Assembly: GCA_949318235.1 (NCBI GenBank)
Contig: CASGGR010000048.1
Coordinates: 62,001 to 126,000, forward strand
Source: Ecdyonurus torrentis
Taxonomy: Eukaryota > Arthropoda > Insecta > Ephemeroptera > Heptageniidae
Length of the DNA stretch: 64,000 bases
Direction: 5' to 3'
Part shown: one piece after another, positions 1 through 64,000 of the stretch
Layout: the number at the start of each line of letters is the position of its first letter
Numbering within the stretch: the stretch's first letter is position 1
The notes under the pieces: generated by a model
What the model was told of the DNA's origin: nothing
The model's database searches: none
The model's input: only the letters and a program-made list of their open reading frames with translations
Program-made: the position numbers and the translations under genes

Positions 1-189
1 CTAAAAATGCTTCAGACATTCAATATAACTCAAAACATAGCTTTTTCAATTCTCTACAAAAAAGATGTCTTGAACTTTTTTGCTCCGACGCATACTTTTT
101 GGGTTATTGACAATTTTAGTTATCACTCATCATGAAGCCAAACCAAGTCATAAAACAAAGTTTCTATTTCAAGAATTAAATGTTATTGA
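1..189 (+). repeat. Partial monomer at left edge
   Basis: The last 189 bases of a monomer of the type also found complete at 2894-3139 and 5844-6089 (GCTTCAGAC, CAATTCTCTAC, CATCATGAAGCC). The array therefore continues to the left of the window in the same phase. Confidence 0.93.
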
Positions 190-3139
190 ATGATAAAAAT
201 CATACTTTTTACACGATAAAAACTAGTTTTGATGATTTCTCAAAAACTAAGAATGCTACAGACAACTATTTTGACTCAAAACATAGCTATTTCAATTCTG
301 TACAAAAAATATGTCTTGAACTTTTTTGCTCCGACGCATACTTTTTGGGTTATTGACAATTTTAGTTTTCACTCGTCATGTAGCCAAACCTAGTCATAAA
401 ACAAAGTTTCTATTTCAAGAAACAAATATTATTGAATGATAAAAATCATACTTTTTACACGATTAAAACTAGTTTTGATGATTTCTCAAAAACTAAAAAT
501 GCTACAGACATCCAATATAACTCAAAACATAGCTTTTTTAATTGTCTACAAAAAAGATGTCTTGAACTTTTTTCTCCGACGCATACTTTTTGGGTTATTG
601 ACAATTTTAGTTATCACTCATCATGTAGCCAAACCAAGTCATAAAACAAAGTTTCTATTTCAAGAATTAAATGTTATTGAAATATAAAAATCATACTTTT
701 TACACGATTAAAACTAGTTTTGATGATTTCTCAAAAACTAAAAATGCTACAGACATTCAATATATCTCAAAACATAGCTTTTTCAATTCTCTACAAAAAA
801 GATGTCTTGAACTTTTTTGCTCCGACGCATACTTTTTGGGTTATTGACAATTTTAGTTATCACTCATCATGAAGCCAAACCAAGTCAAAAAACAAAGTTT
901 CTATTTCAAGAATTAAATGTTATTGAATGATAAAAATCATACTTTTTACACGATTAAAACTAGTTTTGATGATTTCTCAAAAACTAAGAAAGCTACAGAC
1001 TTTTTTTTAAACTCAAAACATAGCTTTTTCATTTCTGTACAAAAAAGATGTCTTGAACTTTTTTGCTCCGACGCATACTTTTTGGGTTATTGACAATTTT
1101 AGTTTTCACTCGTCATGTAGCCAAACCTAGTCATAAAACAAAGTTTCTATTTCAAGAACCAAATGTTATTGAATGATAAAAATCATACTTTTTACACGAT
1201 TAAAACTAGTTTTGATGATTTCTCAAAAACTAAAAATGCTACAGACATCCAATATAACTCAAAACATAGCTTTTTTAATTGTCTACAAAAAAAATGTCTT
1301 GAACTTTTTTGCTCCGACGCATACTTTTTGGGTTTTTGACAATTTTAGTTATCACTCATCATGTAGCCAAAGCAAGTCATAATACAAAGTTTCAATTTCA
1401 AGAATTAAATGTTATTGAATTATAAAAATCATACTTTTTACACGATTAAAACTAGTTTTGATGATTTCTCAAAAACTAAAAATGCTACAGACATTCAATA
1501 TTTCTCAAAACATAGCTTTTTCAATTCTGTACAAAAAAGATGTCTTGAACTTTTTTGCTCCGACGCATACTTTTTGGGTTATTGACAATTTTAGTTTTCA
1601 CTCGTCATGTAGCCAAACCTAGTCATAAAACAAAGTTTCTATTTCAAGAACCAAATGTTATTGAATGATAAAAATCATACTTTTTACACGATAAAAACTA
1701 GTTTTGATGATTTCTCAAAAACTAAGAATGCTACAGACATCTATTTTGACTCAAAACATAGCTATTTCAATTCTGTACAAAAAATATGTCTTGAACTTTT
1801 TTGCTCCGACGCATACTTTTTGGGTTATTGACAATTTTAGTTTTCACTCGTCATGTAGCCAAACCTAGTCATAAAACAAAGTTTCTATTTCAAGAAACAA
1901 ATATTATTGAATGATAAAAATCATACTTTTTACACGATTAAAACTAGTTTTGATGATTTCTCAAAAACTAAAAATGCTACAGACATCCAATATAACTCAA
2001 AACATAGCTTTTTTAATTGTCTACAAAAAAGATGTCTTGAACTTTTTTCTCCGACGCATACTTTTTGGGTTATTGACAATTTTAGTTATCACTCATCATG
2101 TAGCCAAACCAAGTCATAAAACAAAGTTTCTATTTCAAGAATTAAATGTTATTGAATTATAAAAATCATACTTTTTACACGATTAAAACTAGTTTTGATG
2201 ATTTCTCAAAAACTAAAAATGCTACAGACATTCAATATATCTCAAAACATAGCTTTTTCAATTCTGTACAAAAAAGATGTCTTAAACTTTTTTGATCCGA
2301 CGCATACTTTTTGGGTTATTGACAATTTTAGTTATCACTCATCATGTAGCCAAACCAAGTCATAAAACAAAGTTTCTATTTCAAAAATTAAATGTTATTG
2401 AATGATAAAAATCATACTTTTTACACGATTAAAACTAATTTTGATGATTTCTCAAAAACTAAGAATGCTACAGACATTTATTTTAACTTAAAACATAGCT
2501 TTTTCAATTCTGTACAAAAAATATGTATTGAACTTTTTTGCTCCGACGCATACTTTTTGGGTTATTGACAATTTTAGTTTTCACTCGTCATGTAGCCAAA
2601 CCTAGTCATAAAACAAAGTTTCTATTTCAAGAAACAAATGTTATTGAATGATAAAAATCATACTTTTTACACGATTAAAACTAGTTTTGATGATTTCTCA
2701 AAAACTAAAAATGCTACAGACATTCAATATAACTCAAAACATAGCTTTTTTAATTGTCTACAAAAAAGATGTCTTGAACTTTATTGCTCCGACGCATACT
2801 TTTTGGGTAAATGACAATTTTAGTTATCACTGATCATGTAGCCAAACCAAGTCATAAAACAAAGTTTCTATTTCAAGAATTAAATGTTATTGAATTATAA
2901 AAATCATACTTTTTACAAGATTAAAACTAGTTTTGATGATTTCTCAAAAACTAAAAATGCTTCAGACATTCAATATAACTCAAAACATAGCTTTTTCAAT
3001 TCTCTACAAAAAAGATGTCTTGAACTTTTTTGCTCCGACGCATACTTTTTGGGTTATTGACAATTTTAGTTATCACTCATCATGAAGCCAAACCAAGTCA
3101 TAAAACAAAGTTTCTATTTCAAGAATTAAATGTTATTGA
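190..3139 (+). repeat. 2,950-bp 12-mer HOR, copy 1
   Basis: Twelve monomers start at 190, 436, 681, 927, 1173, 1419, 1665, 1911, 2156, 2402, 2648 and 2894 (types 1 to 12). Types 2 and 8 are the 245-bp class and their forward reading is identical, so the unit is two 1,475-bp hexamers. Version A is types 3-8 and version B is types 9-12, 1 and 2. Private markers include AATATAAAAATC at 681, AGAAAGCTACAG in the monomer at 927, TTGATCCG at 2156 and GGGTAAATGAC at 2648. Confidence 0.93.
436..680 (+). repeat. 245-bp G-deletion monomer class (type specimen, 'type 2')
   Basis: This monomer reads CTTTTTTCTCCG where others read CTTTTTTGCTCCG, one base shorter. The same allele occurs in 29 monomers (starts 436, 1911, 3386, 4861, 6336, 7811, 9286, 10023, 11498, 12973, 14448, 15185, 19607, 20835, 21817, 28456, 31651, 33863, 35337, 37549, 38778, 40253, 43696, 44925, 46400, 55746, 59434, 61892, 63121). 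It is almost always preceded by the linked tail AAACAAATATTATTG, with one variant at 21787-21816. A shared indel plus a linked flanking haplotype points to one origin followed by amplification, which makes it the best landmark for the higher-order periods. Confidence 0.92.
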
Positions 3140-6089
3140 ATGATAAAAATCATACTTTTTACACGATAAAAACTAGTTTTGATGATTTCTCAAAAACTAA
3201 GAATGCTACAGACAACTATTTTGACTCAAAACATAGCTATTTCAATTCTGTACAAAAAATATGTCTTGAACTTTTTTGCTCCGACGCATACTTTTTGGGT
3301 TATTGACAATTTTAGTTTTCACTCGTCATGTAGCCAAACCTAGTCATAAAACAAAGTTTCTATTTCAAGAAACAAATATTATTGAATGATAAAAATCATA
3401 CTTTTTACACGATTAAAACTAGTTTTGATGATTTCTCAAAAACTAAAAATGCTACAGACATCCAATATAACTCAAAACATAGCTTTTTTAATTGTCTACA
3501 AAAAAGATGTCTTGAACTTTTTTCTCCGACGCATACTTTTTGGGTTATTGACAATTTTAGTTATCACTCATCATGTAGCCAAACCAAGTCATAAAACAAA
3601 GTTTCTATTTCAAGAATTAAATGTTATTGAAATATAAAAATCATACTTTTTACACGATTAAAACTAGTTTTGATGATTTCTCAAAAACTAAAAATGCTAC
3701 AGACATTCAATATATCTCAAAACATAGCTTTTTCAATTCTCTACAAAAAAGATGTCTTGAACTTTTTTGCTCCGACGCATACTTTTTGGGTTATTGACAA
3801 TTTTAGTTATCACTCATCATGAAGCCAAACCAAGTCAAAAAACAAAGTTTCTATTTCAAGAATTAAATGTTATTGAATGATAAAAATCATACTTTTTACA
3901 CGATTAAAACTAGTTTTGATGATTTCTCAAAAACTAAGAAAGCTACAGACTTTTTTTTAAACTCAAAACATAGCTTTTTCATTTCTGTACAAAAAAGATG
4001 TCTTGAACTTTTTTGCTCCGACGCATACTTTTTGGGTTATTGACAATTTTAGTTTTCACTCGTCATGTAGCCAAACCTAGTCATAAAACAAAGTTTCTAT
4101 TTCAAGAACCAAATGTTATTGAATGATAAAAATCATACTTTTTACACGATTAAAACTAGTTTTGATGATTTCTCAAAAACTAAAAATGCTACAGACATCC
4201 AATATAACTCAAAACATAGCTTTTTTAATTGTCTACAAAAAAAATGTCTTGAACTTTTTTGCTCCGACGCATACTTTTTGGGTTTTTGACAATTTTAGTT
4301 ATCACTCATCATGTAGCCAAAGCAAGTCATAATACAAAGTTTCAATTTCAAGAATTAAATGTTATTGAATTATAAAAATCATACTTTTTACACGATTAAA
4401 ACTAGTTTTGATGATTTCTCAAAAACTAAAAATGCTACAGACATTCAATATTTCTCAAAACATAGCTTTTTCAATTCTGTACAAAAAAGATGTCTTGAAC
4501 TTTTTTGCTCCGACGCATACTTTTTGGGTTATTGACAATTTTAGTTTTCACTCGTCATGTAGCCAAACCTAGTCATAAAACAAAGTTTCTATTTCAAGAA
4601 CCAAATGTTATTGAATGATAAAAATCATACTTTTTACACGATAAAAACTAGTTTTGATGATTTCTCAAAAACTAAGAATGCTACAGACATCTATTTTGAC
4701 TCAAAACATAGCTATTTCAATTCTGTACAAAAAATATGTCTTGAACTTTTTTGCTCCGACGCATACTTTTTGGGTTATTGACAATTTTAGTTTTCACTCG
4801 TCATGTAGCCAAACCTAGTCATAAAACAAAGTTTCTATTTCAAGAAACAAATATTATTGAATGATAAAAATCATACTTTTTACACGATTAAAACTAGTTT
4901 TGATGATTTCTCAAAAACTAAAAATGCTACAGACATCCAATATAACTCAAAACATAGCTTTTTTAATTGTCTACAAAAAAGATGTCTTGAACTTTTTTCT
5001 CCGACGCATACTTTTTGGGTTATTGACAATTTTAGTTATCACTCATCATGTAGCCAAACCAAGTCATAAAACAAAGTTTCTATTTCAAGAATTAAATGTT
5101 ATTGAATTATAAAAATCATACTTTTTACACGATTAAAACTAGTTTTGATGATTTCTCAAAAACTAAAAATGCTACAGACATTCAATATATCTCAAAACAT
5201 AGCTTTTTCAATTCTGTACAAAAAAGATGTCTTAAACTTTTTTGATCCGACGCATACTTTTTGGGTTATTGACAATTTTAGTTATCACTCATCATGTAGC
5301 CAAACCAAGTCATAAAACAAAGTTTCTATTTCAAAAATTAAATGTTATTGAATGATAAAAATCATACTTTTTACACGATTAAAACTAATTTTGATGATTT
5401 CTCAAAAACTAAGAATGCTACAGACATTTATTTTAACTTAAAACATAGCTTTTTCAATTCTGTACAAAAAATATGTATTGAACTTTTTTGCTCCGACGCA
5501 TACTTTTTGGGTTATTGACAATTTTAGTTTTCACTCGTCATGTAGCCAAACCTAGTCATAAAACAAAGTTTCTATTTCAAGAAACAAATGTTATTGAATG
5601 ATAAAAATCATACTTTTTACACGATTAAAACTAGTTTTGATGATTTCTCAAAAACTAAAAATGCTACAGACATTCAATATAACTCAAAACATAGCTTTTT
5701 TAATTGTCTACAAAAAAGATGTCTTGAACTTTATTGCTCCGACGCATACTTTTTGGGTAAATGACAATTTTAGTTATCACTGATCATGTAGCCAAACCAA
5801 GTCATAAAACAAAGTTTCTATTTCAAGAATTAAATGTTATTGAATTATAAAAATCATACTTTTTACAAGATTAAAACTAGTTTTGATGATTTCTCAAAAA
5901 CTAAAAATGCTTCAGACATTCAATATAACTCAAAACATAGCTTTTTCAATTCTCTACAAAAAAGATGTCTTGAACTTTTTTGCTCCGACGCATACTTTTT
6001 GGGTTATTGACAATTTTAGTTATCACTCATCATGAAGCCAAACCAAGTCATAAAACAAAGTTTCTATTTCAAGAATTAAATGTTATTGA
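3140..6089 (+). repeat. 2,950-bp 12-mer HOR, copy 2
   Basis: Monomer starts are 3140, 3386, 3631, 3877, 4123, 4369, 4615, 4861, 5106, 5352, 5598 and 5844, each exactly 2,950 bases after copy 1. All diagnostic variants I checked are the same, including the rare AATATAAAAATC at 3631. I saw no difference between the copies, which implies a very recent duplication. Confidence 0.93.
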
Positions 6090-8055
6090 ATGATAAAAAT
6101 CATACTTTTTACACGATAAAAACTAGTTTTGATGATTTCTCAAAAACTAAGAATGCTACAGACAACTATTTTGACTCAAAACATAGCTATTTCAATTCTG
6201 TACAAAAAATATGTCTTGAACTTTTTTGCTCCGACGCATACTTTTTGGGTTATTGACAATTTTAGTTTTCACTCGTCATGTAGCCAAACCTAGTCATAAA
6301 ACAAAGTTTCTATTTCAAGAAACAAATATTATTGAATGATAAAAATCATACTTTTTACACGATTAAAACTAGTTTTGATGATTTCTCAAAAACTAAAAAT
6401 GCTACAGACATCCAATATAACTCAAAACATAGCTTTTTTAATTGTCTACAAAAAAGATGTCTTGAACTTTTTTCTCCGACGCATACTTTTTGGGTTATTG
6501 ACAATTTTAGTTATCACTCATCATGTAGCCAAACCAAGTCATAAAACAAAGTTTCTATTTCAAGAATTAAATGTTATTGAATTATAAAAATCATACTTTT
6601 TACACGATTAAAACTAGTTTTGATGATTTCTCAAAAACTAAAAATGCTACAGACATTCAATATATCTCAAAACATAGCTTTTTCAATTCTCTACAAAAAA
6701 GATGTCTTGAACTTTTTTGCTCCGACGCATACTTTTTGGGTTATTGACAATTTTAGTTATCACTCATCATGAAGCCAAACCAAGTCAAAAAACAAAGTTT
6801 CTATTTCAAGAATTAAATGTTATTGAATGATAAAAATCATACTTTTTACACGATTAAAACTAGTTTTGATGATTTCTCAAAAACTAAGAAAGCTACAGAC
6901 TTTTTTTTAAACTCAAAACATAGCTTTTTCATTTCTGTACAAAAAAGATGTCTTGAACTTTTTTGCTCCGACGCATACTTTTTGGGTTATTGACAATTTT
7001 AGTTTTCACTCGTCATGTAGCCAAACCTAGTCATAAAACAAAGTTTCTATTTCAAGAACCAAATGTTATTGAATGATAAAAATCATACTTTTTACACGAT
7101 TAAAACTAGTTTTGATGATTTCTCAAAAACTAAAAATGCTACAGACATCCAATATAACTCAAAACATAGCTTTTTTAATTGTCTACAAAAAAAATGTCTT
7201 GAACTTTTTTGCTCCGACGCATACTTTTTGGGTTTTTGACAATTTTAGTTATCACTCATCATGTAGCCAAAGCAAGTCATAATACAAAGTTTCAATTTCA
7301 AGAATTAAATGTTATTGAATTATAAAAATCATACTTTTTACACGATTAAAACTAGTTTTGATGATTTCTCAAAAACTAAAAATGCTACAGACATTCAATA
7401 TTTCTCAAAACATAGCTTTTTCAATTCTGTACAAAAAAGATGTCTTGAACTTTTTTGCTCCGACGCATACTTTTTGGGTTATTGACAATTTTAGTTTTCA
7501 CTCGTCATGTAGCCAAACCTAGTCATAAAACAAAGTTTCTATTTCAAGAACCAAATGTTATTGAATGATAAAAATCATACTTTTTACACGATAAAAACTA
7601 GTTTTGATGATTTCTCAAAAACTAAGAATGCTACAGACATCTATTTTGACTCAAAACATAGCTATTTCAATTCTGTACAAAAAATATGTCTTGAACTTTT
7701 TTGCTCCGACGCATACTTTTTGGGTTATTGACAATTTTAGTTTTCACTCGTCATGTAGCCAAACCTAGTCATAAAACAAAGTTTCTATTTCAAGAAACAA
7801 ATATTATTGAATGATAAAAATCATACTTTTTACACGATTAAAACTAGTTTTGATGATTTCTCAAAAACTAAAAATGCTACAGACATCCAATATAACTCAA
7901 AACATAGCTTTTTTAATTGTCTACAAAAAAGATGTCTTGAACTTTTTTCTCCGACGCATACTTTTTGGGTTATTGACAATTTTAGTTATCACTCATCATG
8001 TAGCCAAACCAAGTCATAAAACAAAGTTTCTATTTCAAGAATTAAATGTTATTGA
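6090..8055 (+). repeat. 12-mer HOR, copy 3, truncated after type 8
   Basis: Types 1 to 8 start at 6090, 6336, 6581, 6827, 7073, 7319, 7565 and 7811. The monomer at 6581 reads ATTATAAAAATC where copies 1 and 2 read AATAT. After the 245-bp monomer at 7811 the order returns to type 3 instead of continuing to type 9. This is the expected result of exchange between the near-identical types 2 and 8. Confidence 0.9.
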
Positions 8056-9530
8056 ATTATAAAAATCATACTTTTTACACGATTAAAACTAGTTTTGATG
8101 ATTTCTCAAAAACTAAAAATGCTACAGACATTCAATATATCTCAAAACATAGCTTTTTCAATTCTCTACAAAAAAGATGTCTTGAACTTTTTTGCTCCGA
8201 CGCATACTTTTTGGGTTATTGACAATTTTAGTTATCACTCATCATGAAGCCAAACCAAGTCAAAAAACAAAGTTTCTATTTCAAGAATTAAATGTTATTG
8301 AATGATAAAAATCATACTTTTTACACGATTAAAACTAGTTTTGATGATTTCTCAAAAACTAAGAAAGCTACAGACATCTTTTTTAACTCAAAACATAGCT
8401 TTTTCATTTCTGTACAAAAAAGATGTCTTGAACTTTTTTGCTCCGACGCATACTTTTTGGGTTATTGACAATTTTAGTTTTCACTCGTCATGTAGCCAAA
8501 CCTAGTCATAAAACAAAGTTTCTATTTCAAGAACCAAATGTTATTGAATGATAAAAATCATACTTTTTACACGATTAAAACTAATTTTGATGATTTCTCA
8601 AAAACTAAAAATGCTACAGACATCCAATATAACTCAAAACATAGCTTTTTTAATTGTCTACAAAAAAAATGTCTTGAACTTTTTTGCTCCGACGCATACT
8701 TTTTGGGTTTTTGACAATTTTAGTTATCACTCATCATGTAGCCAAAGCAAGTCATAATACAAAGTTTCAATTTCAAGAATTAAATGTTATTGAATTATAA
8801 AAATCATACTTTTTACACGATTAAAACTAGTTTTGATGATTTCTCAAAAACTAAAAATGCTACAGACATTCAATATTTCTCAAAACATAGCTTTTTCAAT
8901 TCTGTACAAAAAAGATGTCTTGAACTTTTTTGCTCCGACGCATACTTTTTGGGTTATTGACAATTTTAGTTTTCACTCGTCATGTAGCCAAACCTAGTCA
9001 TAAAACAAAGTTTCTATTTCAAGAACCAAATGTTATTGAATGATAAAAATCATACTTTTTACACGATAAAAACTAGTTTTGATGATTTCTCAAAAACTAA
9101 GAATGCTACAGACATCTATTTTGACTCAAAACATAGCTATTTCAATTCTGTACAAAAAATATGTCTTGAACTTTTTTGCTCCGACGCATACTTTTTGGGT
9201 TATTGACAATTTTAGTTTTCACTCGTCATGTAGCCAAACCTAGTCATAAAACAAAGTTTCTATTTCAAGAAACAAATATTATTGAATGATAAAAATCATA
9301 CTTTTTACACGATTAAAACTAGTTTTGATGATTTCTCAAAAACTAAAAATGCTACAGACATCCAATATAACTCAAAACATAGCTTTTTTAATTGTCTACA
9401 AAAAAGATGTCTTGAACTTTTTTCTCCGACGCATACTTTTTGGGTTATTGACAATTTTAGTTATCACTCATCATGTAGCCAAACCAAGTCATAAAACAAA
9501 GTTTCTATTTCAAGAATTAAATGTTATTGA
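8056..9530 (+). repeat. 1,475-bp hexamer A, additional copy
   Basis: Types 3-8 again, starting at 8056, 8302, 8548, 8794, 9040 and 9286, in direct tandem with the hexamer at 6581-8055. It differs at a few sites: type 4 reads GACATCTTTTTTAACTC instead of a longer T-run, and type 5 (8548) reads CTAATTTTG, losing the palindrome. Confidence 0.88.
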
Positions 9531-10022
9531 ATTATAAAAATCATACTTTTTACACGATTAAAACTAGTTTTGATGATTTCTCAAAAACTAAAAATGCTAC
9601 AGACATTCAATATATCTCAAAACATAGCTTTTTCAATTCTGTACAAAAAAGATGTCTTGAACTTTTTTGCTCCGACGCATACTTTTTGGGTTATTGACAA
9701 TTTTAGTTATCACTCATCATGTAGCCAAACCAAGTCATAAAACAAAGTTTCTATTTCAAAAATTAAATGTTATTGAATGATAAAAATCATACTTTTTACA
9801 CGATTAAAACTAGTTTTGATGATTTCTCAAAAACTAAGAATGCTACAGACATTTATTTTAACTTAAAACATAGCTTTTTCAATTCTGTACAAAAAATATG
9901 TATTGAACTTTTTTGCTCCGACGCATACTTTTTGGGTTATTGACAATTTTAGTTTTCACTCGTCATGTAGCCAAACCTAGTCATAAAACAAAGTTTCTAT
10001 TTCAAGAAACAAATATTATTGA
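9531..10022 (+). repeat. Two-monomer block, types 9' and 10'
   Basis: Monomers at 9531 and 9777 resemble types 9 and 10, but lack the CTTAAAC/TTGATCCG variants of type 9 and retain CTAGTTTTG in type 10. The same pair recurs at 14693 and 14939, each time followed by a 245-bp class monomer. Confidence 0.82.
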
Positions 10023-16411: not shown

Positions 16412-16657
16412 ATTATAAAAATCATACTTTTTACACGATTAAAACTAGTTTTGATGATTTCTCAAAAACTAAAAATGCTACAGACATCCAATATAACTCA
16501 AAACATAGCTTTTTCAATTCTCTACAAAAAAGATGTCTTGAACTTTTTTGCTCCGATGCATACTTTTTGGGTTATTGACAATTTTAGTTATCACTCATCA
16601 TGAAGCCAAACCAAGTCATAAAACAAAGTTTCTATTTCAAGAATTAAATGTTATTGA
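16412..16657 (+). repeat. Tetramer position 4 monomer (leading copy)
   Basis: Marked by CTCCGATGCATAC (CpG to TpG in the core), CAATTCTCTAC and CATCATGAAGCC. It reads GACATCCAATATAAC where the following tetramers read GACATCCATTATAAC. Confidence 0.82.
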
Positions 16658-16671
16658 ATGATAAAAATCAT
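16658..16671. other. Small dyad at monomer start (ATGAT-AAAA-ATCAT)
   Basis: Five-base inverted arms flank an AAAA centre. The dyad is perfect in monomers beginning ATGAT and carries a mismatch in those beginning ATTAT or ATAAT, so it is not universally kept. It could be a weak hairpin or a protein dyad site, but with this AT content chance is also likely. Confidence 0.5.
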
Positions 16672-16686
16672 ACTTTTTACACGATT

Positions 16687-16717
16687 AAAACTAGTTTTGA
16701 TGATTTCTCAAAAACTA
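16687..16717. other. AAAACTAGTTTT palindrome followed by a third AAAACTA arm
   Basis: Positions 16687-16698 are a perfect 12-bp palindrome containing an ACTAGT (SpeI) site. TAGTTTT at 16692-16698 can also pair with AAAACTA at 16711-16717 across a 12-base loop, so two alternative hairpins share one arm. The motif is in nearly every monomer. Monomers losing one A (for example 17150) keep a 10-bp palindrome. A few (for example 2402, 5352, 8548, 10514, 11989, 13464) read CTAATTTTG and lose the palindrome and the site. Confidence 0.8.
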
Positions 16718-16730
16718 AGAATGCTACAGA

Positions 16731-16772
16731 CATCTATTTTAACTCAAAACATAGCTTTTTCATTTCTGTACA
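16731..16772. other. Hypervariable block of the monomer
   Basis: Most monomer-type differences fall here, about monomer positions 74-115. Examples after GACA are TCTATTTTAAC, TCCAATATAAC, TTCAATATATC, ACTATTTTGAC, TCCAACTTAATTC, TCCAGTATAAC and TTCATAATATC. The following T-run then continues as TTTTCATTTCTGTAC, TTTTCAATTCTCTAC or TTTTTAATTGTCTAC. These haplotypes are the best labels for tracing monomer ancestry and mark most of the unit boundaries used in this annotation. Confidence 0.85.
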
Positions 16773-16777
16773 AAAAA

Positions 16778-46600: not shown

Positions 46601-49600
46601 AGTCATAAAACAAAGTTTCTATTTCAAGAATTAAATGTTATTGAATTATAAAAATCATACTTTTTACACGATTAAAACTAGTTTTGATGATTTCTCAAAA
46701 ACTAAAAATGCTACAGACATTCAATATATCTCAAAACATAGTTTTTTCAATTCTGTACAAAAAAGATGTCTTGAACTTTTTTGCTCCGACGCATACTTTT
46801 TGGGTTATTGACAATTTTAGTTATCACTCATCATGTAGCCAAACCAAGACATAAAACAAAGTTTCTATTTCAAAAATTAAATGTTATTGAATGATAAAAA
46901 TCATACTTTTTACACGATTAAAACTAGTTTTGATGATTTCTCAAAAACTAAGAATGCTACAGACATTTATTTTAACTTAAAACATAGCTTTTTCAATTCT
47001 GTACAAAAAAGATGTCTTGAACTTTTTTGCTCCGACGCATACTTTTTGGGTTATTGACAATTTTAGTTTTCACTCGTCATGTAGCCAAACCTAGTCATAA
47101 AACAAAGTTTCTATTTCAAGAAACAAATGTTATTGAATGATAAAAATCATACTTTTTACACGATTAAAACTAGTTTTGATGATTTCTCAAAAACTAAAAA
47201 TGCTACAGACATTCAATATAACTCAAAACATAGCTTTTTTAATTGTCTACAAAAAAAATGTCTTGAACTTTATTGCTCCGACGCATACTTTTTGGGTAAA
47301 TGACAATTTTAGTTATCACTCATCATGTAGCCAAACCAAGTCATAAAACAAAGTTTCTATTTCAAGAATTAAATGTTATTGAATTATAAAAATCATACTT
47401 TTTACACGATTAAAACTAGTTTTGATAATTTCTCAAAAACTAAAAATGCTACAGACATTCAATATATCTCAAAACATAGCTTTTTCAATTCTCTACAAAA
47501 AAGATGTCTTGATCTTTTTTGCTCCGACGCATACTTTTTGGGTTATTGACAATTTTAGTTATCACTCATCATGAAGCCAAACCAAGTCATAAAACAAAGT
47601 TTCTATTTCAAGAATTAAATGTTATTGAATAATAAAAATCATACTTTTTACACGATTAAAACTAGTTTTGATGATTTCTCAAAAACTAAGAATGCTACAG
47701 ACATCTTTTTTAACTCAAAACATAGCTTTTTCATTTCTGTACAAAAAAGATGTCTTGAACTTTTTTGCTCCGACGCATACTTTTTGGGTTATTGACAATT
47801 TTAGTTTTCACTCGTCATGTAGCCAAACCTAGTCATAAAACAAAGTTTCTATTTCAGGAACCAAATGTTATTGAATGATAAAAATCATACTTTTTACACG
47901 ATTAAAACTAGTTTTGATGATTTCTCAAAAACTAAAAATGCTACAGACATCCAATATAACTCAAAACATAGCTTTTTTAATTGTCTACAAAAAAGATGTC
48001 TTGAACTTTTTTGCTCCGACGCATACTTTTTGGGTTATTGACAATTTTAGTTATCACTCATCATGTAGCCAAAGCAAGTCATAATACAAAGTTTCAATTT
48101 CAAGTCTTAAATGTTATTGAATTATAAAAATCATACTTTTTACACGATTAAAACTAGTTTTGATGATTTCTCAAAAACTAAAAATGCTACAGACATTCAA
48201 TATATCTCAAAACATAGCTTTTTCAATTCTGTACGAAAAAGATGTCTTGAACTTTTTTGCTCCGACGCATACTTTTTGGGTTATTGACAATTTTAGTTTT
48301 CACTCGTCATGTAGCCAAACCTAGTCATAAAACAAAGTTTCTATTTCAAAAAACAAATGTTATTGAATGATAAAAATCATACTTTTTACACGATTAAAAC
48401 TAGTTTTGATGATTTCTCAAAAACTAAAAATGCTACAGACATCCAATATAACTCAAAACATAGCTTTTTTAATTGTCTACAAAAAAGATGTCTTGAACTT
48501 TATTGCTCCGACGCATACTTTTTGGGTTATTGACAATTTTAGTTTTCACTCGTCATGTAGCCAAACCTAGTCATAAAACAAAGTTTCTATTTCAGGAACC
48601 AAATGTTATTGAATGATAAAAATCATACTTTTTACACGATTAAAACTAGTTTTGATGATTTCTCAAAAACTAAAAATGCTACAGACATCCAATATAACTC
48701 AAAACATAGCTTTTTTAATTGTCTACAAAAAAGATGTCTTGAACTTTTTTGCTCCGACGCATACTTTTTGGGTTATTGACAATTTTAGTTATCACTCATC
48801 ATGTAGCCAAAGCAAGTCATAATACAAAGTTTCAATTTCAAGACTTAAATGTTATTGAATTATAAAAATCATACTTTTTACACGATTAAAACTAGTTTTG
48901 ATGATTTCTCAAAAACTAAAAATGCTACAGACATTCAATATATCTCAAAACATAGCTTTTTCAATTCTGTACGAAAAAGATGTCTTGAACTTTTTTGCTC
49001 CGACGCATACTTTTTGGGTTATTGACAATTTTAGTTTTCACTCGTCATGTAGCCAAACCTAGTCATAAAACAAAGTTTCTATTTCAAAAAACAAATGTTA
49101 TTGAATGATAAAAATCATACTTTTTACACGATTAAAACTAGTTTTGATGATTTCTCAAAAACTAAAAATGCTACAGACATCCAATATAACTCAAAACATA
49201 GCTTTTTTAATTGTCTACAAAAAAGATGTCTTGAACTTTATTGCTCCGACGCATACTTTTTGGGTTATTGACAATTTTAGTTATCACTCATCATGTAGCC
49301 AAACCAAGTCATAAAACAAAGTTTCTATTTCAAGAACCAAATGTTATTGAATAATAAAAATTATACTTTTTACACGATTAAAACTAGTTTTGATGATTTC
49401 TCAAAAACTAAGAATGCTAGAGACATCCAACTTAATTCAAAACATAGCTTTTTTAATTCTCTACAAAAAAGATGTCTTGAACTTTTTTGCTCCGACGCAC
49501 ACTTTTTGGGTTATTGACAATTTTAGTTTTTACTCATCATGTAGCCAAACCAAGTCATAAAACAAAGTTTCTATTTGAAGAACCAAATGTTATTGAATGA

Positions 49601-49842
49601 TAAAAATCATACTTTTTACACGATTAAAACTAGTTTTGATGATTTCTCAAAAACTAAGAATGCTACAGACATCTATTTTAACTCAAAACATAGCTTTTTC
49701 AATTCTGTACGAAAAAGATGTCTTGAACTTTTTTGCTCCGACGCATACTTTTTGGGTTATTGACAATTTTAGTTTTCACTCGTCATGTAGCCAAACCTAG
49801 TCATAAAACAAAGTTTCTATTTCAAGAATTAAATGTTATTGA
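43696..49842 (+). repeat. 6,147-bp 25-mer tandem duplication, copy 2
   Basis: Monomers at 43696, 43941, 44187, 44433, 44679, 44925, 45170, 45416, 45662, 45908, 46154, 46400, 46645, 46891, 47137, 47383, 47629, 47875, 48121, 48367, 48613, 48859, 49105, 49351 and 49597. All private markers listed for copy 1 are present at the +6,147 offset and I noticed no substitution. Only the tail of the last monomer differs: AAGAATTAAATG here, AAGAAACAAATATT in copy 1, where it joins the start of copy 2. Confidence 0.93.
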
Positions 49843-55253: not shown

Positions 55254-56973
55254 ATGATAAAAATCATACTTTTTACACGATTAAAACTAGTTTTGATGAT
55301 TTCTCAAAAACTAAAAATGCTACAGACATCCAGTATAACTTAAAACATAGCTTTTTTAATTGTCTACAAAAAAAATGTCTTGAACTTTTTTGCTCCGACG
55401 CATACTTTTTGGGTTATTGACAATTTTAGTTATCACTCATCATGTAGCCAAAGCAAGTCATAAAACAAAGTTTCAATTTCAAGAATTAAATGTTATTGAA
55501 TTATAAAAATCATACTTTTTACACGATTAAAACTAGTTTTGATGAATTCTCAAAAACTAAAAATGCTACAGACATTCAATATAACTCAAAACATAGCTTT
55601 TTTAATTCTGTACAAAAAAGATGTCTTGAACTTTTTTGCTCCGACGCATACTTTTTGGGTTATTGACAATTTTAGTTTTCACTCGTCATGTAGCCAAACC
55701 TAGTCATAAAACAAAGTTTCTATTTCAAGAAACAAATATTATTGAATGATAAAAATCATACTTTTTACACGATTAAAACTAGTTTTGATGATTTCTCAAA
55801 AACTAAAAATGCTACAGACATCCAATATAACTCAAAACATAGCTTTTTTAATTGTCTACAAAAAAGATGTCTTGAACTTTTTTCTCCGACGCATACTTTT
55901 TGGGTTATTGACAATTTTAGTTATCACTCATCATGTAGCCAAACCAAGTCATAAAACAAAGTTTCTATTTCAAGAATTAAATGTTATTGAATTATAAAAA
56001 TCATACTTTTTACACGATTAAAACTAGTTTTGATGATTTCTCAAAAACTAAGAATGCTACAGACATTTATTTTAACTTAAAACATAGCTTTTTCAATTCT
56101 GTACAAAAAATATGAATTGAACTTTTTTGCTCCGACGCATACTTTTTGGGTTATTGACAATTTTAGTTTTCACTCGTCATGTAGCCAAACCTAGTCATAA
56201 AACAAAGGTTATATTTCAAGAAACAAATGTTATTGAATGATAAAAATCATACTTTTTACACGATTAAAACTAGTTTTAATGATTTCTCAAAAACTAAGAA
56301 TGCTACAGACATCTATTTTAACTCAAAACATAGCTTTTTCATTTCTGTACAAAAAAGATGTCTTGAACTTTTTTGCTCCGACGCATACTTTTTGGGTTAT
56401 TGACAATTTTAGTTTTCACTCGTCATGTAGCAAAACCTAGTCATAAAACAAAGTTTCCATTTCAAGAACCAAATGTTATTGAATGATAAAAATCATACTT
56501 TTTACACGATTAAAACTAGTTTTGATGATTTCTCAAAAACTAAGAATGCTACAGACATCTATTTTAACTTAAAACATAGCTTTTTCAATTCTGTACAAAA
56601 AAGATGTCTTGAACTTTTTTGCTCCGACGCATACTTTTTGGGTTCTTGACAATTTAAGTTGTCACTCGTCATGTAGCCAAACCTAGTCATAAAACAAAGT
56701 TTCTATTTCAAGAACCAAATGTTATTGAATGATAAAAATTATACTTTTTACATGATTAAACTAGTTTTGATGATTTCTCAAAAACTAAAAATGCTACAGA
56801 CATCCAATATAACTTTAAACATAGCTTTTTTAATTGTCTACAAAAAAGATGTCTTGAACTTTTTTGCTCCGACGCATACTTTTTGGGTTATTGACAATTT
56901 TAGTTATCACTCATCATGTAGCCAAACCAAGTCATAAAACAAAGTTTCTATTTCAAGAATTAAATGTTATTGA

Positions 56974-57465
56974 ATTATAAAAATCATACTTTTTACACGA
57001 TTAAAACTAGTTTTGATGATTTCTCAAAAACTAAAAATGCTACAGACAATCAATATATCTCAAAACATAGCTTTTTCAATTCTGTACGAAAAAGATGTCT
57101 TGAACTTTTTTGCTCCGACGCATACTTTTTGGGTTATTGACAATTTTAATTTTCACTCGTCATGTAGCCAAACCTAGTCATAAAACAAAGTTTCTATTTC
57201 AAAAAACAAATGTTATTGAATGATAAAAATCATACTTTTTACACGATTAAAACTAGTTTTGATGATTTCTCAAAAACTAAAAATGCTACAGACAATCAAT
57301 ATATCTCAAAACATAGCTTTTTCAATTCTGTACGAAAAAGATGTCTTGAACTTTTTTGCTCCGACGCATACTTTTTGGGTTATTGACAATTTTAATTTTC
57401 ACTCGTCATGTAGCCAAACCTAGTCATAAAACAAAGTTTCTATTTCAAAAAACAAATGTTATTGA
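56974..57465 (+). repeat. Single-monomer tandem duplication
   Basis: Monomers at 56974 and 57220 share GACAATCAATATATC, GTACGAAAAAG and the rare TTTTAATTTTCAC. This combination is otherwise seen only at 53286. The second begins ATGAT and the first ATTAT, so the duplication boundary lies near the monomer start. Confidence 0.82.
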
Positions 57466-58203
57466 ATGATAAAAATCATACTTTTTACACGATTAAAACT
57501 AGTTTTGATGATTTCTCAAAAACTAAGAATGCTAGAGACATCCAACTTAATTCAAAACATAGCTTTTTCAATTCTCTACAAAAAAGATGTCTTGAACTTT
57601 ATTGCTCCGACGCATACTTTTTGGGTTATTGACAATTTTAGTTATCACTCATCATGTAGCCAAACCAAGTCATAAAACAAAGTTTCTATTTCAAGAACCA
57701 AATGTTATTGAATAATAAAAATTATACTTTTTACACGATTAAAACTAGTTTTGATGATTTCTCAAAAACTAAGAATGCTAGAGACATCCAACTTAATTCA
57801 AAACATAGCTTTTTCAATTCTCTACAAAAAAGATGTCTTGAACTTTTTTGCTCCGACGCACACTTTTTGGGTTATTGACAATTTTAGTTTTTACTCATCA
57901 TGTAGCCAAACCAAGTCATAAAACAAAGTTTCTAATTAAAGAACCAAATGTTATTGAATGATAAAAATCATACTTTTTACACGATTAAAACTAGTTTTGA
58001 TGATTTCTCAAAAACTAAGAATGCTACAGACATTTATTTTGACTCAAAACATAGCTTTTTCATTTCTGTACAAAAAAGATGTCTTGAACTTTTTTGCTCC
58101 GACGCATACTTTTTGGGTTATTGACAGTTTTAGTTTTCACTCGTCATGTAGCCAAACCTAGTCATAAAACAAAGTTTCTATTTCAAAAAACAAATGTTAT
58201 TGA
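57466..58203 (+). repeat. 738-bp trimer with TCTAATTAAAGAACC, copy 1
   Basis: Monomers at 57466 and 57712 (both GCTAGAGACATCCAAC) and 57958 (GACAGTTTTAG). The tail TCTAATTAAAGAACC before 57958 is private to this family. Confidence 0.86.
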
Positions 58204-58941
58204 ATGATAAAAATCATACTTTTTACACGATTAAAACTAGTTTTGATGATTTCTCAAAAACTAAGAATGCTAGAGACATCCAACTTAATTCAAAACATAG
58301 CTTTTTCAATTCTCTACAAAAAAGATGTCTTGAACTTTATTGCTCCGACGCATACTTTTTGGGTTATTGACAATTTTAGTTATCACTCATCATGTAGCCA
58401 AACTAAGTCATAAAACAAACTTTCTATTTCAAGAACCAAATGTTATTGAATAATAAAAATTATACTTTTTACACGATTAAAACTAGTTTTGATGATTTCT
58501 CAAAAACTAAGAATGCTAGAGACATCCAACTTAATTCAAAACATAGCTTTTTCAATTCTCTACAAAAAAGATGTCTTGAACTTTTTTGCTCCGACGCACA
58601 CTTTTTGGGTTATTGACAATTTTAGTTTTTACTCATCATGTAGCCAAACCAAGTCATAAAACAAAGTTTCTAATTAAAGAACCAAATGTTATTGAATGAT
58701 AAAAATCATACTTTTTACACGATTAAAACTAGTTTTGATGATTTCTCAAAAACTAAGAATGCTACAGACATTTATTTTGACTCAAAACATAGCTTTTTCA
58801 TTTCTGTACAAAAAAGATGTCTTGAACTTTTTTGCTCCGACGCATACTTTTTGGGTTATTGACAGTTTTAGTTTTCACTCGTCATGTAGCCAAACCTAGT
58901 CATAAAACAAAGTTTCTATTTCAAAAAACAAATGTTATTGA
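58204..58941 (+). repeat. 738-bp trimer with TCTAATTAAAGAACC, copy 2
   Basis: Monomers at 58204, 58450 and 58696. All trimer markers are repeated. The first monomer has AAACTAAGTC and AACAAACTTTC changes in its tail (about 58400-58420) not seen in copy 1. Confidence 0.86.
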
Positions 58942-61399
58942 ATGATAAAAATCATACTTTTTACACGATTAAAACTAGTTTTGATGATTTCTCAAAAACT
59001 AAAAATGCTACAGACATCCAGTATAACTTAAAACATAGCTTTTTTAATTGTCTACAAAAAAAATGTCTTGAACTTTTTTGCTCCGACGCATACTTTTTGG
59101 GTTATTGACAATTTTAGTTATCACTCATCATGTAGCCAAAGCAAGTCATAAAACAAAGTTTCAATTTCAAGAATTAAATGTTATTGAATTATAAAAATCA
59201 TACTTTTTACACGATTAAAACTAGTTTTGATGATTTCTCAAAAACTAAAAATGCTACAGACATTCAATATAACTCAAAACATAGCTTTTTTAATTCTGTA
59301 CAAAAAAGATGTCTTAAACTTTTTTGCTCCGACGCATACTTTTTGGGTTATTGACAATTTTAGTTTTCACTCGTCATGTAGCCAAACCTAGTCATAAAAC
59401 AAAGTTTCTATTTCAAGAAACAAATATTATTGAATGATAAAAATCATACTTTTTACACGATTAAAACTAGTTTTGATGATTTCTCAAAAACTAAAAATGC
59501 TACAGACATCCAATATAACTCAAAACATAGCTTTTTTAATTGTCTACAAAAAAGATGTCTTGAACTTTTTTCTCCGACGCATACTTTTTGGGTTATTGAC
59601 AATTTTAGTTATCACTCATCATGTAGCCAAACCAAGTCATAAAACAAAGTTTCTATTTCAAGAATTAAATGTTATTGAATTATAAAAATCATACTTTTTA
59701 CACGATTAAAACTAGTTTTGATGATTTCTCAAAAACTAAGAATGCTACAGACATTTATTTTAACTTAAAACATAGCTTTTTCAATTCTGTACAAAAAATA
59801 TGTATTGAACTTTTTTGCTCCGACGCATACTTTTTGGGTTATTGACAATTTTAGTTTTCACTCGTCATGTAGCCAAACCTAGTCATAAAACAAAGTTTAT
59901 ATTTCAAGAAACAAATGTTATTGAATGATAAAAATCATACTTTTTACACGATTAAAACTAGTTTTAATGATTTCTCAAAAACTAAGAATGCTACAGACAT
60001 CTATTTTAACTCAAAACATAGCTTTTTCATTTCTGTACAAAAAAGATGTCTTGAACTTTTTTGCTCCGACGCATACTTTTTGGGTTATTGACAATTTTAG
60101 TTTTCACTCGTCATGTAGCAATACCTAGTCATAAAACAAAGTTTCCATTTCAAGAACCAAATGTTATTGAATGATAAAAATCATACTTTTTACACGATTA
60201 AAACTAGTTTTGATGATTTCTCAAAAACTAAGAATGCTACAGACATCTATTTTAACTTAAAACATAGCTTTTTCAATTCTGTACAAAAAAGATGTCTTGA
60301 ACTTTTTTGCTCCGACGCATACTTTTTGGGTTCTTGACAATTTAAGTTGTCACTCGTCATGTAGCCAAACCTAGTCATAAAACAAAGTTTCTATTTCAAG
60401 AACCAAATGTTATTGAATGATAAAAATTATACTTTTTACATGATTAAACTAGTTTTGATGATTTCTCAAAAACTAAAAATGCTACAGACATCCAATATAA
60501 CTTTAAACATAGCTTTTTTAATTGTCTACAAAAAAGATGTCTTGAACTTTTTTGCTCCGACGCATACTTTTTGGGTTATTGACAATTTTAGTTATCACTC
60601 ATCATGTAGCCAAACCAAGTCATAAAACAAAGTTTCTATTTCAAGAATTAAATGTTATTGAATTATAAAAATCATACTTTTTACACGATTAAAACTAGTT
60701 TTGATGATTTCTCAAAAACTAAAAATGCTACAGACAATCAATATAACTCAAAACATAGCTTTTTTAATTGTCTACAAAAAAGATGTCTTGAACTTTATTG
60801 CTCCGACGCATACTTTTTGGGTTATTGACAATTTTAGTTATCACTCATCATGTAGCCAAACCAAGTCATAAAACAAAGTTTCTATTTCAAGAACCAAATG
60901 TTATTGAATAATAAAAATTATACTTTTTACACGATTAAAACTAGTTTTGATGATTTCTCAAAAACTAAGAATGCTAGAGACATTCAACTTAATTCAAAAC
61001 ATAGCTTTTTCAATTCTCTACAAAAAAGATGTCTTGAACTTTTTTGCTCCGACGCACACTTTTTGGGTTATTGACAATTTTAGTTTTTACTCATCATGTA
61101 GCCAAACCAAGTCATAAAACAAAGTTTCTAATTAAAGAACCAAATGTTATTGAATGATAAAAATCATACTTTTTACACGATTAAAACTAGTTTTGATGAT
61201 TTCTCAAAAACTAAGAATGCTACAGACATATATTTTGACTCAAAACATAGCTTTTTCATTTCTGTACAAAAAAGATGTCTTGAACTTTTTTGCTCCGACG
61301 CATACTTTTTGGGTTATTGACAGTTTTAGTTTTCACTCGTCATGTAGCCAAACCTAGTCATAAAACAAAGTTTCTATTTCAAAAAACAAATGTTATTGA
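58942..61399 (+). repeat. 15-mer HOR derivative with ten monomers (2,458 bp)
   Basis: Monomers at 58942, 59188, 59434 (245-bp class), 59679, 59925, 60171, 60417, 60662, 60908 and 61154. The first eight follow 55254-57219, although 60662 is a hybrid with GACAATCAATATAAC then TTATTGCTCCG. The last two follow 57712 and 57958, so one monomer duplication and one trimer are absent. Confidence 0.86.
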
Positions 61400-62628
61400 A
61401 TGATAAAAATCATACTTTTTACACGATTAAAACTAGTTTTGATGATTTCTCAAAAACTAAAAATGCTACAGACATCCAGTATAACTTAAAACATAGCTTT
61501 TTTAATTGTCTACAAAAAAAATGTCTTGAACTTTTTTGCTCCGACGCATACTTTTTGGGTTATTGACAATTTTAGTTATCACTCATCATGTAGCCAAAGC
61601 AAGTCATAAAACAAAGTTTCAATTTCAAGAATTAAATGTTATTGAATTATAAAAATCATACTTTTTACACGATTAAAACTAGTTTTGATGATTTCTCAAA
61701 AACTAAAAATGCTACAGACATTCAATATAACTCAAAACATAGCTTTTTTAATTCTGTACAAAAAAGATGTCTTAAACTTTTTTGCTCCGACGCATACTTT
61801 TTGGGTTATTGACAATTTTAGTTTTCACTCGTCATGTAGCCAAACCTAGTCATAAAACAAAGTTTCTATTTCAAGAAACAAATATTATTGAATGATAAAA
61901 ATCATACTTTTTACACGATTAAAACTAGTTTTGATGATTTCTCAAAAACTAAAAATGCTACAGACATCCAATATAACTCAAAACATAGCTTTTTTAATTG
62001 TCTACAAAAAAGATGTCTTGAACTTTTTTCTCCGACGCATACTTTTTGGGTTATTGACAATTTTAGTTATCACTCATCATGTAGCCAAACCAAGTCATAA
62101 AACAAAGTTTCTATTTCAAGAATTAAATGTTATTGAATTATAAAAATCATACTTTTTACACGATTAAAACTAGTTTTGATGATTTCTCAAAAACTAAGAA
62201 TGCTACAGACATTTATTTTAACTTAAAACATAGCTTTTTCAATTCTGTACAAAAAATATGTATTGAACTTTTTTGCTCCGACGCATACTTTTTGGGTTAT
62301 TGACAATTTTAGTTTTCACTCGTCATGTAGCCAAACCTAGTCATAAAACAAAGTTTATATTTCAAGAAACAAATGTTATTGAATGATAAAAATCATACTT
62401 TTTACACGATTAAAACTAGTTTTAATGATTTCTCAAAAACTAAGAATGCTACAGACATCTATTTTGACTCAAAACATAGCTTTTTCATTTCTGTACAAAA
62501 AAGATGTCTTGAACTTTTTTGCTCCGACGCATACTTTTTGGGTTATTGACAGTTTTAGTTTTCACTCGTCATGTAGCCAAACCTAGTCATAAAACAAAGT
62601 TTCTATTTCAAAAAACAAATGTTATTGA
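61400..62628 (+). repeat. 1,229-bp pentamer, copy 1
   Basis: Monomers at 61400, 61646 (CTTAAAC), 61892 (245-bp class), 62137 and 62383. The last is a hybrid: TTTTAATGATTTC at the start as in 56237 and 59925, then TTTTGACTC and GACAGTTTTAG as in 58696 and 61154. That hybrid closes the unit after five monomers. Confidence 0.86.
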
Positions 62629-63857
62629 ATGATAAAAATCATACTTTTTACACGATTAAAACTAGTTTTGATGATTTCTCAAAAACTAAAAATGCTACAG
62701 ACATCCAGTATAACTTAAAACATAGCTTTTTTAATTGTCTACAAAAAAAATGTCTTGAACTTTTTTGCTCCGACGCATACTTTTTGGGTTATTGACAATT
62801 TTAGTTATCACTCATCATGTAGCCAAAGCAAGTCATAAAACAAAGTTTCAATTTCAAGAATTAAATGTTATTGAATTATAAAAATCATACTTTTTACACG
62901 ATTAAAACTAGTTTTGATGATTTCTCAAAAACTAAAAATGCTACAGACATTCAATATAACTCAAAACATAGCTTTTTTAATTCTGTACAAAAAAGATGTC
63001 TTAAACTTTTTTGCTCCGACGCATACTTTTTGGGTTATTGACAATTTTAGTTTTCACTCGTCATGTAGCCAAACCTAGTCATAAAACAAAGTTTCTATTT
63101 CAAGAAACAAATATTATTGAATGATAAAAATCATACTTTTTACACGATTAAAACTAGTTTTGATGATTTCTCAAAAACTAAAAATGCTACAGACATCCAA
63201 TATAACTCAAAACATAGCTTTTTTAATTGTCTACAAAAAAGATGTCTTGAACTTTTTTCTCCGACGCATACTTTTTGGGTTATTGACAATTTTAGTTATC
63301 ACTCATCATGTAGCCAAACCAAGTCATAAAACAAAGTTTCTATTTCAAGAATTAAATGTTATTGAATTATAAAAATCATACTTTTTACACGATTAAAACT
63401 AGTTTTGATGATTTCTCAAAAACTAAGAATGCTACAGACATTTATTTTAACTTAAAACATAGCTTTTTCAATTCTGTACAAAAAATATGTATTGAACTTT
63501 TTTGCTCCGACGCATACTTTTTGGGTTATTGACAATTTTAGTTTTCACTCGTCATGTAGCCAAACCTAGTCATAAAACAAAGTTTATATTTCAAGAAACA
63601 AATGTTATTGAATGATAAAAATCATACTTTTTACACGATTAAAACTAGTTTTAATGATTTCTCAAAAACTAAGAATGCTACAGACATCTATTTTAACTCA
63701 AAACATAGCTTTTTCATTTCTGTACAAAAAAGATGTCTTGAACTTTTTTGCTCCGACGCATACTTTTTGGGTTATTGACAATTTTAGTTTTCACTCGTCA
63801 TGTAGCAAAACCTAGTCATAAAACAAAGTTTCCATTTCAAGAACCAAATGTTATTGA
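62629..63857 (+). repeat. 1,229-bp pentamer, copy 2
   Basis: Monomers at 62629, 62875, 63121 (245-bp class), 63366 and 63612. The first four match the previous pentamer. The fifth is the non-hybrid form with ATCTATTTTAACTC and GTAGCAAAACC, as in 56237 and 59925. Confidence 0.86.
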
Positions 63858-64000
63858 ATGATAAAAATCATACTTTTTACACGATTAAAACTAGTTTTGA
63901 TGATTTCTCAAAAACTAAGAATGCTACAGACATTTATTTTGACTCAAAATATAGCTTTTTCAATTCTGTACGAAAAAGATGTCTTGAACTTTTTTGCTCC
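63858..64000 (+). repeat. Partial monomer at right edge
   Basis: The first 143 bases of a monomer with ATTTATTTTGACTC, a private AAAATATAGC and GTACGAAAAAG, closest to the 52057/55008 type. The array continues to the right in the same phase and orientation. Confidence 0.92.

Follow-up and report, generated by a model that had tools for sequence, protein, structure and literature searches.

The monomers within human alpha satellite higher-order repeats (HORs) differ from one another by 20–40%, and the HORs of Arabidopsis CEN178 are irregular and local. Arrays of the CEN178 type contain numerous local duplications, in which blocks of differing length are copied among similar monomers and no unit is fixed. 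Centromere monomers are quoted as 100–200 nucleotides (PMC10199239). HOR satellites are already known from other insects, e.g. the Drosophila ananassae subgroup, in which monomers of 99–411 bp are reported to form stretches of up to 2 Mb (PMC11917152). In Tribolium, the major and minor satellites are described as related families of one ancestor that share (peri)centromeric regions, with macro-dyad symmetry (PMC13081366). No description of any mayfly satellite was found in a literature search that covered the larger result sets in part and, judged from the literature alone, the 246-bp satellite of Ecdyonurus torrentis is plausibly an undescribed family.

The window (the whole stretch of 64,000 bp analysed here) was returned by Tandem Repeats Finder as one array with a period of 246, 260.3 copies, 93% matches and 0% indels. 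Segmentation gave 260 monomers end to end (244–246 bp each, 113 distinct) with a mean divergence of 5.3%, and 260 anchors were found on the plus strand and none on the minus strand. The initial annotation had described 259 full monomers filling the window without a break; both methods bore out the unbroken array, and segmentation corrected the count by one. No ORF of at least 100 aa was detected in the window, indicating that the monomer is non-coding. The array thus has the head-to-tail order, the length far above that of its unit and the non-coding monomer of satellite DNA. A search of Rfam at the gathering threshold with window positions 1–10000 matched no structured-RNA family, and no inversion was seen inside the window or in the pieces of contig C59 examined. 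The longest conserved run inside the monomer was 22 columns, which was not significant (shuffle p 0.29). Variable sites were clustered (best 40-column window, p 0.0035), with the highest 20-column means at 21–60.

Table 1. Positions of the satellite array, its local HORs and the 37-bp core in the window
Feature	Position (bp)	Strand	Remarks
Uninterrupted 246-bp satellite array	1–64000	+	260 full copies and one partial
First copy of 37-bp core common to 176-bp and 342-bp satellites	227–263	+	once per monomer; position by eye from sequence
Trimer-phased stretch	1–8111	+	21 monomers (1–5161) recur at 2950–8111; lag 12 monomers, ~2,950 bp; 99.96% identical
Local 4-mer HOR	16468–19416	+	lag 983 bp; 8 monomers; 99.90%
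Local 13-mer HOR	26792–33672	+	lag 3,195 bp; 15 monomers; 99.89%
Local 15-mer HOR	30232–37849	+	lag 3,687 bp; 16 monomers; 99.92%
25-mer HOR	37605–49652	+	lag 6,147 bp; 24 monomers, 37605–43505 vs 43752–49652; 0 differences
Local 15-mer (~3,688 bp), 10-mer and 5-mer HORs	55310–63913	+	99.7–99.9%

As shown in Table 1, blocks of monomers recurred along the array, runs of 5–24 monomers being repeated at 99.2–100% identity within the window. With HORs defined by the TRASH defaults (at least 3 monomers and at most 5 variants, counted as alignment mismatches), 96.2% of the 260 monomers belonged to HORs, against 28–41% when monomer order was shuffled (five permutations); with a strict setting the values were 83.5% and 0. 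The longest matching run was 24 monomers, and 100 permutations of monomer order gave runs of 4 at most, indicating that the HORs did not arise by chance. Self-identity by lag was high at 246, 738, 983, 1229, 1475, 2950, 3195/3196, 3687/3688 and 6147 bp, so that every period named in the initial annotation was recovered, its 3,686 appearing as 3,687. The best lag shifted from block to block, each period was confined to a limited stretch, and the commonest nearest-HOR period accounted for 19.6% of the monomers in the window and 16.8% of those in C59. Nesting of the periods, also proposed there, was seen in the 25-mer, which contained an internal 6-mer duplication and overlapped a 5-mer duplication starting at 37359, but no single hierarchy ran across the window. 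The HORs are therefore real yet local and irregular, without a dominant period, and the suggested resemblance to the multi-level HORs of primate alpha satellite held for their existence but not for their regularity.

As in human alpha satellite, HOR copies (99–100% here) were more alike than neighbouring monomers (~94% here), but the mayfly monomers were only ~5% apart, the array had no dominant HOR period, and a CENP-B box was absent from its consensus, which mismatched the motif at 3 or 4 of the 9 core positions. The many local block duplications resembled those of CEN178, although the mayfly monomer is longer and its host is an animal. With the satellites of the Drosophila ananassae subgroup it shared an insect host, a complex monomer, megabase HOR stretches, few transposon interruptions and a putatively (peri)centromeric position, as far as that source describes them (PMC11917152). 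The likeness is one of organisation, and the mayfly satellite differs in lineage, in its irregular HOR periods and in having three related families with a common core.

The two identical 5.9-kb stretches could in part reflect false duplication or collapse of the repeat during assembly, and several satellite contigs had whole-kilobase sizes, suggesting cuts made in curation. The assembly was, however, made from 67-fold HiFi reads with a QV of 51 (PMC10665603), and HORs of many lengths occurred along the contig in copies mostly a few differences apart, which false duplication would not give. An artefactual origin of part of the HOR pattern is thus scarcely credible.

Across the genome, 33,145 matches (20,408 + 12,737) to the monomer core were detected with at most 2 mismatches, equivalent to ~8.2 Mb or 1.6%, and a reversed control gave 0; the window is one piece of a megabase-scale tandem repeat. 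Monomers of contigs C59, C60, C61 and C67 were 5.2–6.2% apart mutually and 6.9–9.2% from those of chromosomes 1, 2, 5 and 8, C61 and the chromosomes contributing few monomers to the comparison. The block duplications are local and recent. Blocks of neighbouring monomers would be copied again and again through unequal exchange, or through replication-based duplication when monomers misalign, and such copying would yield irregular, changing HORs and arrays more alike within a contig group than between groups.

Besides many small contigs, 246-bp blocks were located at or near one end of four of the 11 chromosome scaffolds. They were sampled on chromosome 1 at 57.08–57.09 Mb, 57.5 Mb and the last 501 bp (58.27 Mb); on chromosome 2 from 1.07 Mb onwards, with further samples at 1.2 and 1.6 Mb and an opposite-strand one at 2.5 Mb; on chromosome 5 from 48.93 Mb, at 48.97 Mb and the last 501 bp (49.00 Mb); and on chromosome 8 at 28.14–28.16 Mb, 28.4 Mb and the last 501 bp (28.63 Mb). 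On chromosomes 3, 4, 6, 7, 9, 10 and X, a sparse sampling gave no hit: the array was missing from all 27 readable samples taken 0.1 and 0.6 Mb inside the ends and from all 4 at 1.2 Mb. Chromosomes 3, 4, 6 and 7 were also absent among the 100 places of core matches listed, which reached contig C18, before chromosomes 9, 10 and X. Arrays of these seven chromosomes may be internal, unplaced or absent.

Such positions, with satellite in the final 501 bp of three scaffolds and 1–2.5 Mb from the start of a fourth, would also suit a satellite of subtelomeric or knob-like heterochromatin that is unconnected with the centromere. We regard this as very unlikely: nine other scaffold ends, including those of chromosomes 1, 2 and 8 opposite the 246-bp blocks, carry separate terminal repeats in one orientation, and no sampled chromosome had 246-bp repeats at both ends. 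Assembly scaffolds, moreover, often break within centromeres. A 246-bp block at one end and a different, end-type satellite at the other, as on chromosomes 1, 2 and 8, is the layout expected of acrocentric chromosomes.

Odonata, the sister order of the monocentric Ephemeroptera, is holocentric and has no CenH3. A mayfly is reported to possess CenH3 and CenpC, and Ephemeroptera, with metacentric or acrocentric chromosomes, were at one time described as holocentric and have since been reclassified as monocentric (PMC4359364). Because mayflies are reported to be monocentric, the blocks were read as centromeric or pericentromeric, and the array is probably part of the centromere-region satellite of E. 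torrentis. Counting against this reading are the seven chromosomes on which sampling gave no hit, the non-satellite DNA beside the chromosome 5 array and the lack of a CENP-B box. A six-frame genome search gave no match to the CENP-C cupin family; introns can interrupt such genes, so this is not evidence of absence.

The 246-bp blocks adjoined two related satellites, of 176 and 342 bp, on chromosomes 1 and 2 and the 342-bp one on chromosome 8. The chromosome 5 array adjoined non-satellite DNA, with no sister family in samples at 48.5 and 48.8 Mb. Comparisons among the 246-, 176- and 342-bp families gave local scores of 106, 107 and 183, where shuffled sequences reached at most 48, 65 and 54, and the three were therefore taken as a superfamily with a common 37-bp core (TTTTGATGATWTCTC..AAACTAA.AA.GCTACAG). 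Clustering of identity at this core was significant for 246 vs 342 (p 0.001) and 176 vs 342 (p 0.022) but not for 246 vs 176 (p 0.164), and the core was not the least variable part within the 176-bp family. Its constraint is thus a suggestion from sequence comparison, and the core may be a protein-binding element. Divergence was 5.3% in the 246-bp family (one contig), 6.9% in the 342-bp (chromosomes 1 and 8) and 12.6% in the 176-bp (chromosomes 1 and 2); these values are not directly comparable, since the 246-bp monomers differ by 7.0–8.5% between chromosomes, and no order of age was drawn.

A 128-bp repeat lay between 246-bp samples on two chromosomes: at 58.0 Mb on chromosome 1 (between 57.5 and 58.27 Mb) and at 2.0 Mb on chromosome 2, between plus-strand (1.07–1.6 Mb) and minus-strand (2.5 Mb) 246-bp repeats, themselves bordered on both outer flanks by 342-bp repeats. 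Among the 163 loci or samples that could be read, 2 contained it. As a fourth member of the superfamily it was not convincing (six comparisons, the best equalled by 3 of 500 shuffles), and we treat it as unrelated. Tribolium macro-dyads (PMC13081366) offer a partial parallel, since opposite-strand blocks also occurred here on chromosome 2 and in the 176-bp block near 57.03 Mb on chromosome 1, but the mirror layout of chromosome 2 rests on single samples and the array pieces themselves contained no inversion.

From its place on chromosome 1, the 128-bp repeat may be the true centromere core. The superfamily would then be pericentromeric, surrounding a kinetochore seated on the 128-bp repeat or another sequence. 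The two copies were 93.5% identical and both lay between 246-bp samples, and the second chromosome made this arrangement somewhat easier to accept, although each chromosome supplied one 300-bp sample, and a Hi-C scaffold with a contig N50 of 1.0 Mb (PMC10665603) leaves the order and orientation of contigs inside such repeats in doubt. We hold it possible but not favoured. The occurrence of the 128-bp repeat on a second chromosome also lowered our estimate that the 246-bp arrays themselves seat the kinetochore, from nearly even to rather doubtful. Within the broader centromere-region reading, which we prefer, CenH3 nucleosomes and the kinetochore would be seated in this putative centromere block. 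A layered mayfly centromere, in which the 342/176/246-bp superfamily diverged around a constrained 37-bp element and surrounds the unrelated 128-bp repeat, seems unlikely; there a centromere protein would bind the 37-bp element in a sequence-specific manner, giving the element a role comparable to that of the CENP-B box but an independent origin.

Another common satellite core was carried, in one orientation, by 9 of 20 readable chromosome ends, where the end repeats form 408-, 316- and 196-bp arrays. Mayfly chromosome ends are reported to lack TTAGG (PMC8977481, PMC9693754), and the mayfly telomere repeat is given as unknown in one of these sources (PMC8977481). The end-repeat family bears on the question of what caps these ends in place of TTAGG. 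The candidate centromere-region superfamily, present on four chromosomes, can serve directly as a probe for FISH and for mapping CenH3 in Ephemeroptera.

Positions 1–64000 of the window formed a single tandem array of the 246-bp satellite, comprising 260 monomers of 244–246 bp (113 distinct), all on the plus strand, with a mean pairwise divergence of 5.3% and a maximum of 10.5%. This bore out the uninterrupted satellite of the initial annotation, which took it for a possibly undescribed family, and the periods named there were recovered among the top self-identity lags (3,686 as 3,687 bp). The longest run of matching monomers was 24, as against 4 when monomer order was permuted (100 permutations). 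By the TRASH default for higher-order repeats (HORs, runs of neighbouring monomers copied as a block), given in PMC10199239 as at least three monomers and at most five variants, and with alignment mismatches counted here as variants, 96.2% of the 260 monomers lay inside HORs, compared with 28–41% in five permutations; a stricter setting (5 monomers, 3 variants) gave 83.5% against 0.

The HORs were local. The best lag varied by block along C59, the contig that holds the window at 62001–126000 (6, 17, 9, 59, 49, 9, 56, 6, 12 and so on), and the commonest nearest-HOR period accounted for 19.6% of window monomers and 16.8% of C59 monomers. Lags in multiples of three were preferred among window monomers, a three-type monomer order occupied the first ~15 kb of the window, and nesting was partial, around the 25-mer HOR. 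Of the multi-level HORs likened earlier to alpha satellite, the HORs themselves and a partial nesting at the 25-mer stood, but human alpha satellite has a fixed HOR unit, whereas the 246-bp array had none. Local HORs, shifting lags and partial nesting are the pattern expected from repeated block duplication by misaligned exchange, which may have shaped this array.

The sequence examined (ieEcdTorr1.1, 503,193,034 bp) contained 117 contigs, four scaffolds fewer than the 121 of the published E. torrentis genome (503.2 Mb, 11 chromosomes, 15.69-kb mitochondrion; PMC10665603). C1, C4, C8, C10, C11, C12, C15, C17, C20, C21 and C26 were the 11 chromosome scaffolds, and C117 (15,686 bp) was an arthropod mitochondrial genome, whose COX1 shared 98% identity with a cluster bearing the name of Epeorus pellucidus, a heptageniid mayfly; nuclear mitochondrial COX1 pieces were also seen (Table). 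A conserved 32-base core of the 246-bp monomer gave 20,408 forward and 12,737 reverse matches in the genome (≤2 mismatches), and the reversed core, as a control, gave 0 genome-wide at the same threshold. Multiplied by 246, the matches amounted to ~8.15 Mb (1.6% of the genome). The satellite was present at the sampled place in 16 of 62 contigs under 5 Mb (one place per contig; summed lengths of the 16, 4.50 Mb), beyond these in C59, C60 and C67, and in C45 at 3.0 Mb.

C59 (177 kb, 176 kb read) consisted of the satellite except for one 4.7-kb insertion, outside the window. By eye, an 8-bp target duplication (ATAAAAAT) seemed to flank this insertion, whose ends were inverted over 11 bp (TAGAGCTGTGG); none of its open stretches exceeded 87 aa. 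It looks like a non-autonomous element, putatively of hAT type.

As shown in the Table, sparse sampling placed the 246-bp repeat on four chromosomes. On the other seven, none of the 27 readable samples taken 0.1 and 0.6 Mb from the ends (28 in all, one all N) contained it, nor did any of 4 at 1.2 Mb; the core-match positions listed end ahead of chr9, chr10 and X. This is a real gap in the case. Monomers of C59, C60, C61 and C67 formed one group, 5.2–6.2% apart, and diverged by 6.9–9.2% from those of chr1, 2, 5 and 8, as judged from 3 monomers of C61 and 8–12 per chromosome, many from array edges. Within the satellite blocks, the assembly may not fix contig order and orientation with certainty.

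Table. Places of the repeats and other features (L-numbers, sampled pieces of the assembly; C-numbers, contigs or scaffolds)
Feature	Place	Position or piece	Detail
25-mer HOR	window	own stretch	24 monomers, 0 differences; among strongest
12-mer HOR	window	own stretch	21 monomers, 99.96%; among strongest
15-mer and 13-mer HORs	window	each confined to own stretch	among strongest
246-bp repeat	chr1	57.08–57.09 Mb, 57.5 Mb, last 501 bp (58.27)	
246-bp repeat	chr2	from 1.07 Mb, at 1.2 and 1.6 Mb	plus strand
246-bp repeat	chr2	2.5 Mb	minus strand
246-bp repeat	chr5	from 48.93 Mb, at 48.97, last 501 bp (49.00)	
246-bp repeat	chr8	28.14–28.16 and 28.4 Mb, last 501 bp (28.63)	
176-bp satellite	chr1	near 55.9, at 56.8, near 57.0 Mb	strand switch near 57.03 Mb
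176-bp family		L107 1–675, L165	
342-bp satellite	chr1	56.0 Mb	
342-bp satellite	chr2	0.6 and 3.0 Mb	
342-bp satellite	chr8	27.5 and 27.9 Mb	
342-bp family		L164, L166	
128-bp repeat	chr1	58.0 Mb (L135 1–300)	
128-bp repeat	chr2	2.0 Mb (L169 1–300)	93.5% identical to chr1 copy
End repeats	chr1 start	L036 1–10000	408-bp repeat, 24.5 copies, 99%, from base 1
End repeats	other chromosome ends	L039, L042, L051, L114, L119, L121, L122, L123	
Insertion	C59	165460–170148 (L025 9460 to L026 4148)	4.7 kb
COX1 pieces	chr10 (C21)	~7.234 Mb (L010, L012)	two overlapping copies in tandem
COX1 piece	chr2 (C4)	19.5 Mb (L013)	

On chr2 the start of the 246-bp array adjoined a 176-bp satellite, whose core matched 13,780 times genome-wide (≤1 mismatch). 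This family and a 342-bp one shared regions with the 246-bp repeat, both on chr1 and chr2 and the 342-bp also on chr8. Local alignment scores among the three (106, 107 and 183) exceeded all shuffled maxima (48, 65 and 54; 500 shuffles each), indicating that they are homologous and constitute a superfamily. A common 37-bp core was 84–92% identical, versus 58–70% outside it, identity clustering being significant in two of the three pairwise comparisons. Exact 176-bp core matches on chr1 were spaced by e.g. 1,231 and ~1,760 bp, which suggests HORs in that satellite too.

Other tandem repeats (~408, 316 or 196 bp, with a common ~60-bp core) were detected at 9 of 20 readable chromosome-scaffold ends; six of nine starts were read for 300 bp only, so some may be missed. 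All 21 core matches were oriented alike relative to the terminus, and 116 other samples (one all N) gave one clear and one weak match. TTAGG/CCTAA pentamers were absent from the last 501 bp of all 11 chromosome scaffolds. Since TTAGG is reported missing in Ephemeroptera, with no known substitute (PMC9693754 and PMC8977481), these end repeats are a candidate satellite telomere cap.

On chr1, chr2 and chr8 a block of the related satellites lay at one pole and end-type satellites at the opposite pole. Mayflies are reported to be monocentric, their chromosomes being either metacentric or acrocentric, and CenH3 and CenpC to be present in the mayfly species studied (PMC4359364); the layout agrees with acrocentric centromeres, and the 246-bp blocks are probably a centromere-region satellite. 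The chr1 array, however, was interrupted by a 128-bp tandem repeat, and the samples from chr1 and chr2 placed this repeat between 246-bp samples on both chromosomes. On chr2 the 246-bp flanks to either side of it differed in strand, and 342-bp repeats lay farther out in both directions. Comparison with the 246-, 176- and 342-bp families gave no convincing homology. The 128-bp repeat is a candidate inner core; a megabase mirror layout is possible, as is a scaffolding effect. That a second chromosome also had it within the block lowered the chance of the 246-bp arrays themselves being the kinetochore seat from somewhat short of even to less likely than not, and raised slightly, to the same level, the alternative that the superfamily is pericentromeric and the kinetochore sits on the 128-bp repeat or another sequence.

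HOR satellites are known in insects from the Drosophila ananassae subgroup (PMC11917152) and from Tribolium madens, with its related major and minor satellites (PMC13081366), and the mayfly 246-bp array is of the same kind. It is of interest for the insect order in which it occurs, for its three-member superfamily, joined by a common core, and for the layering of the block.
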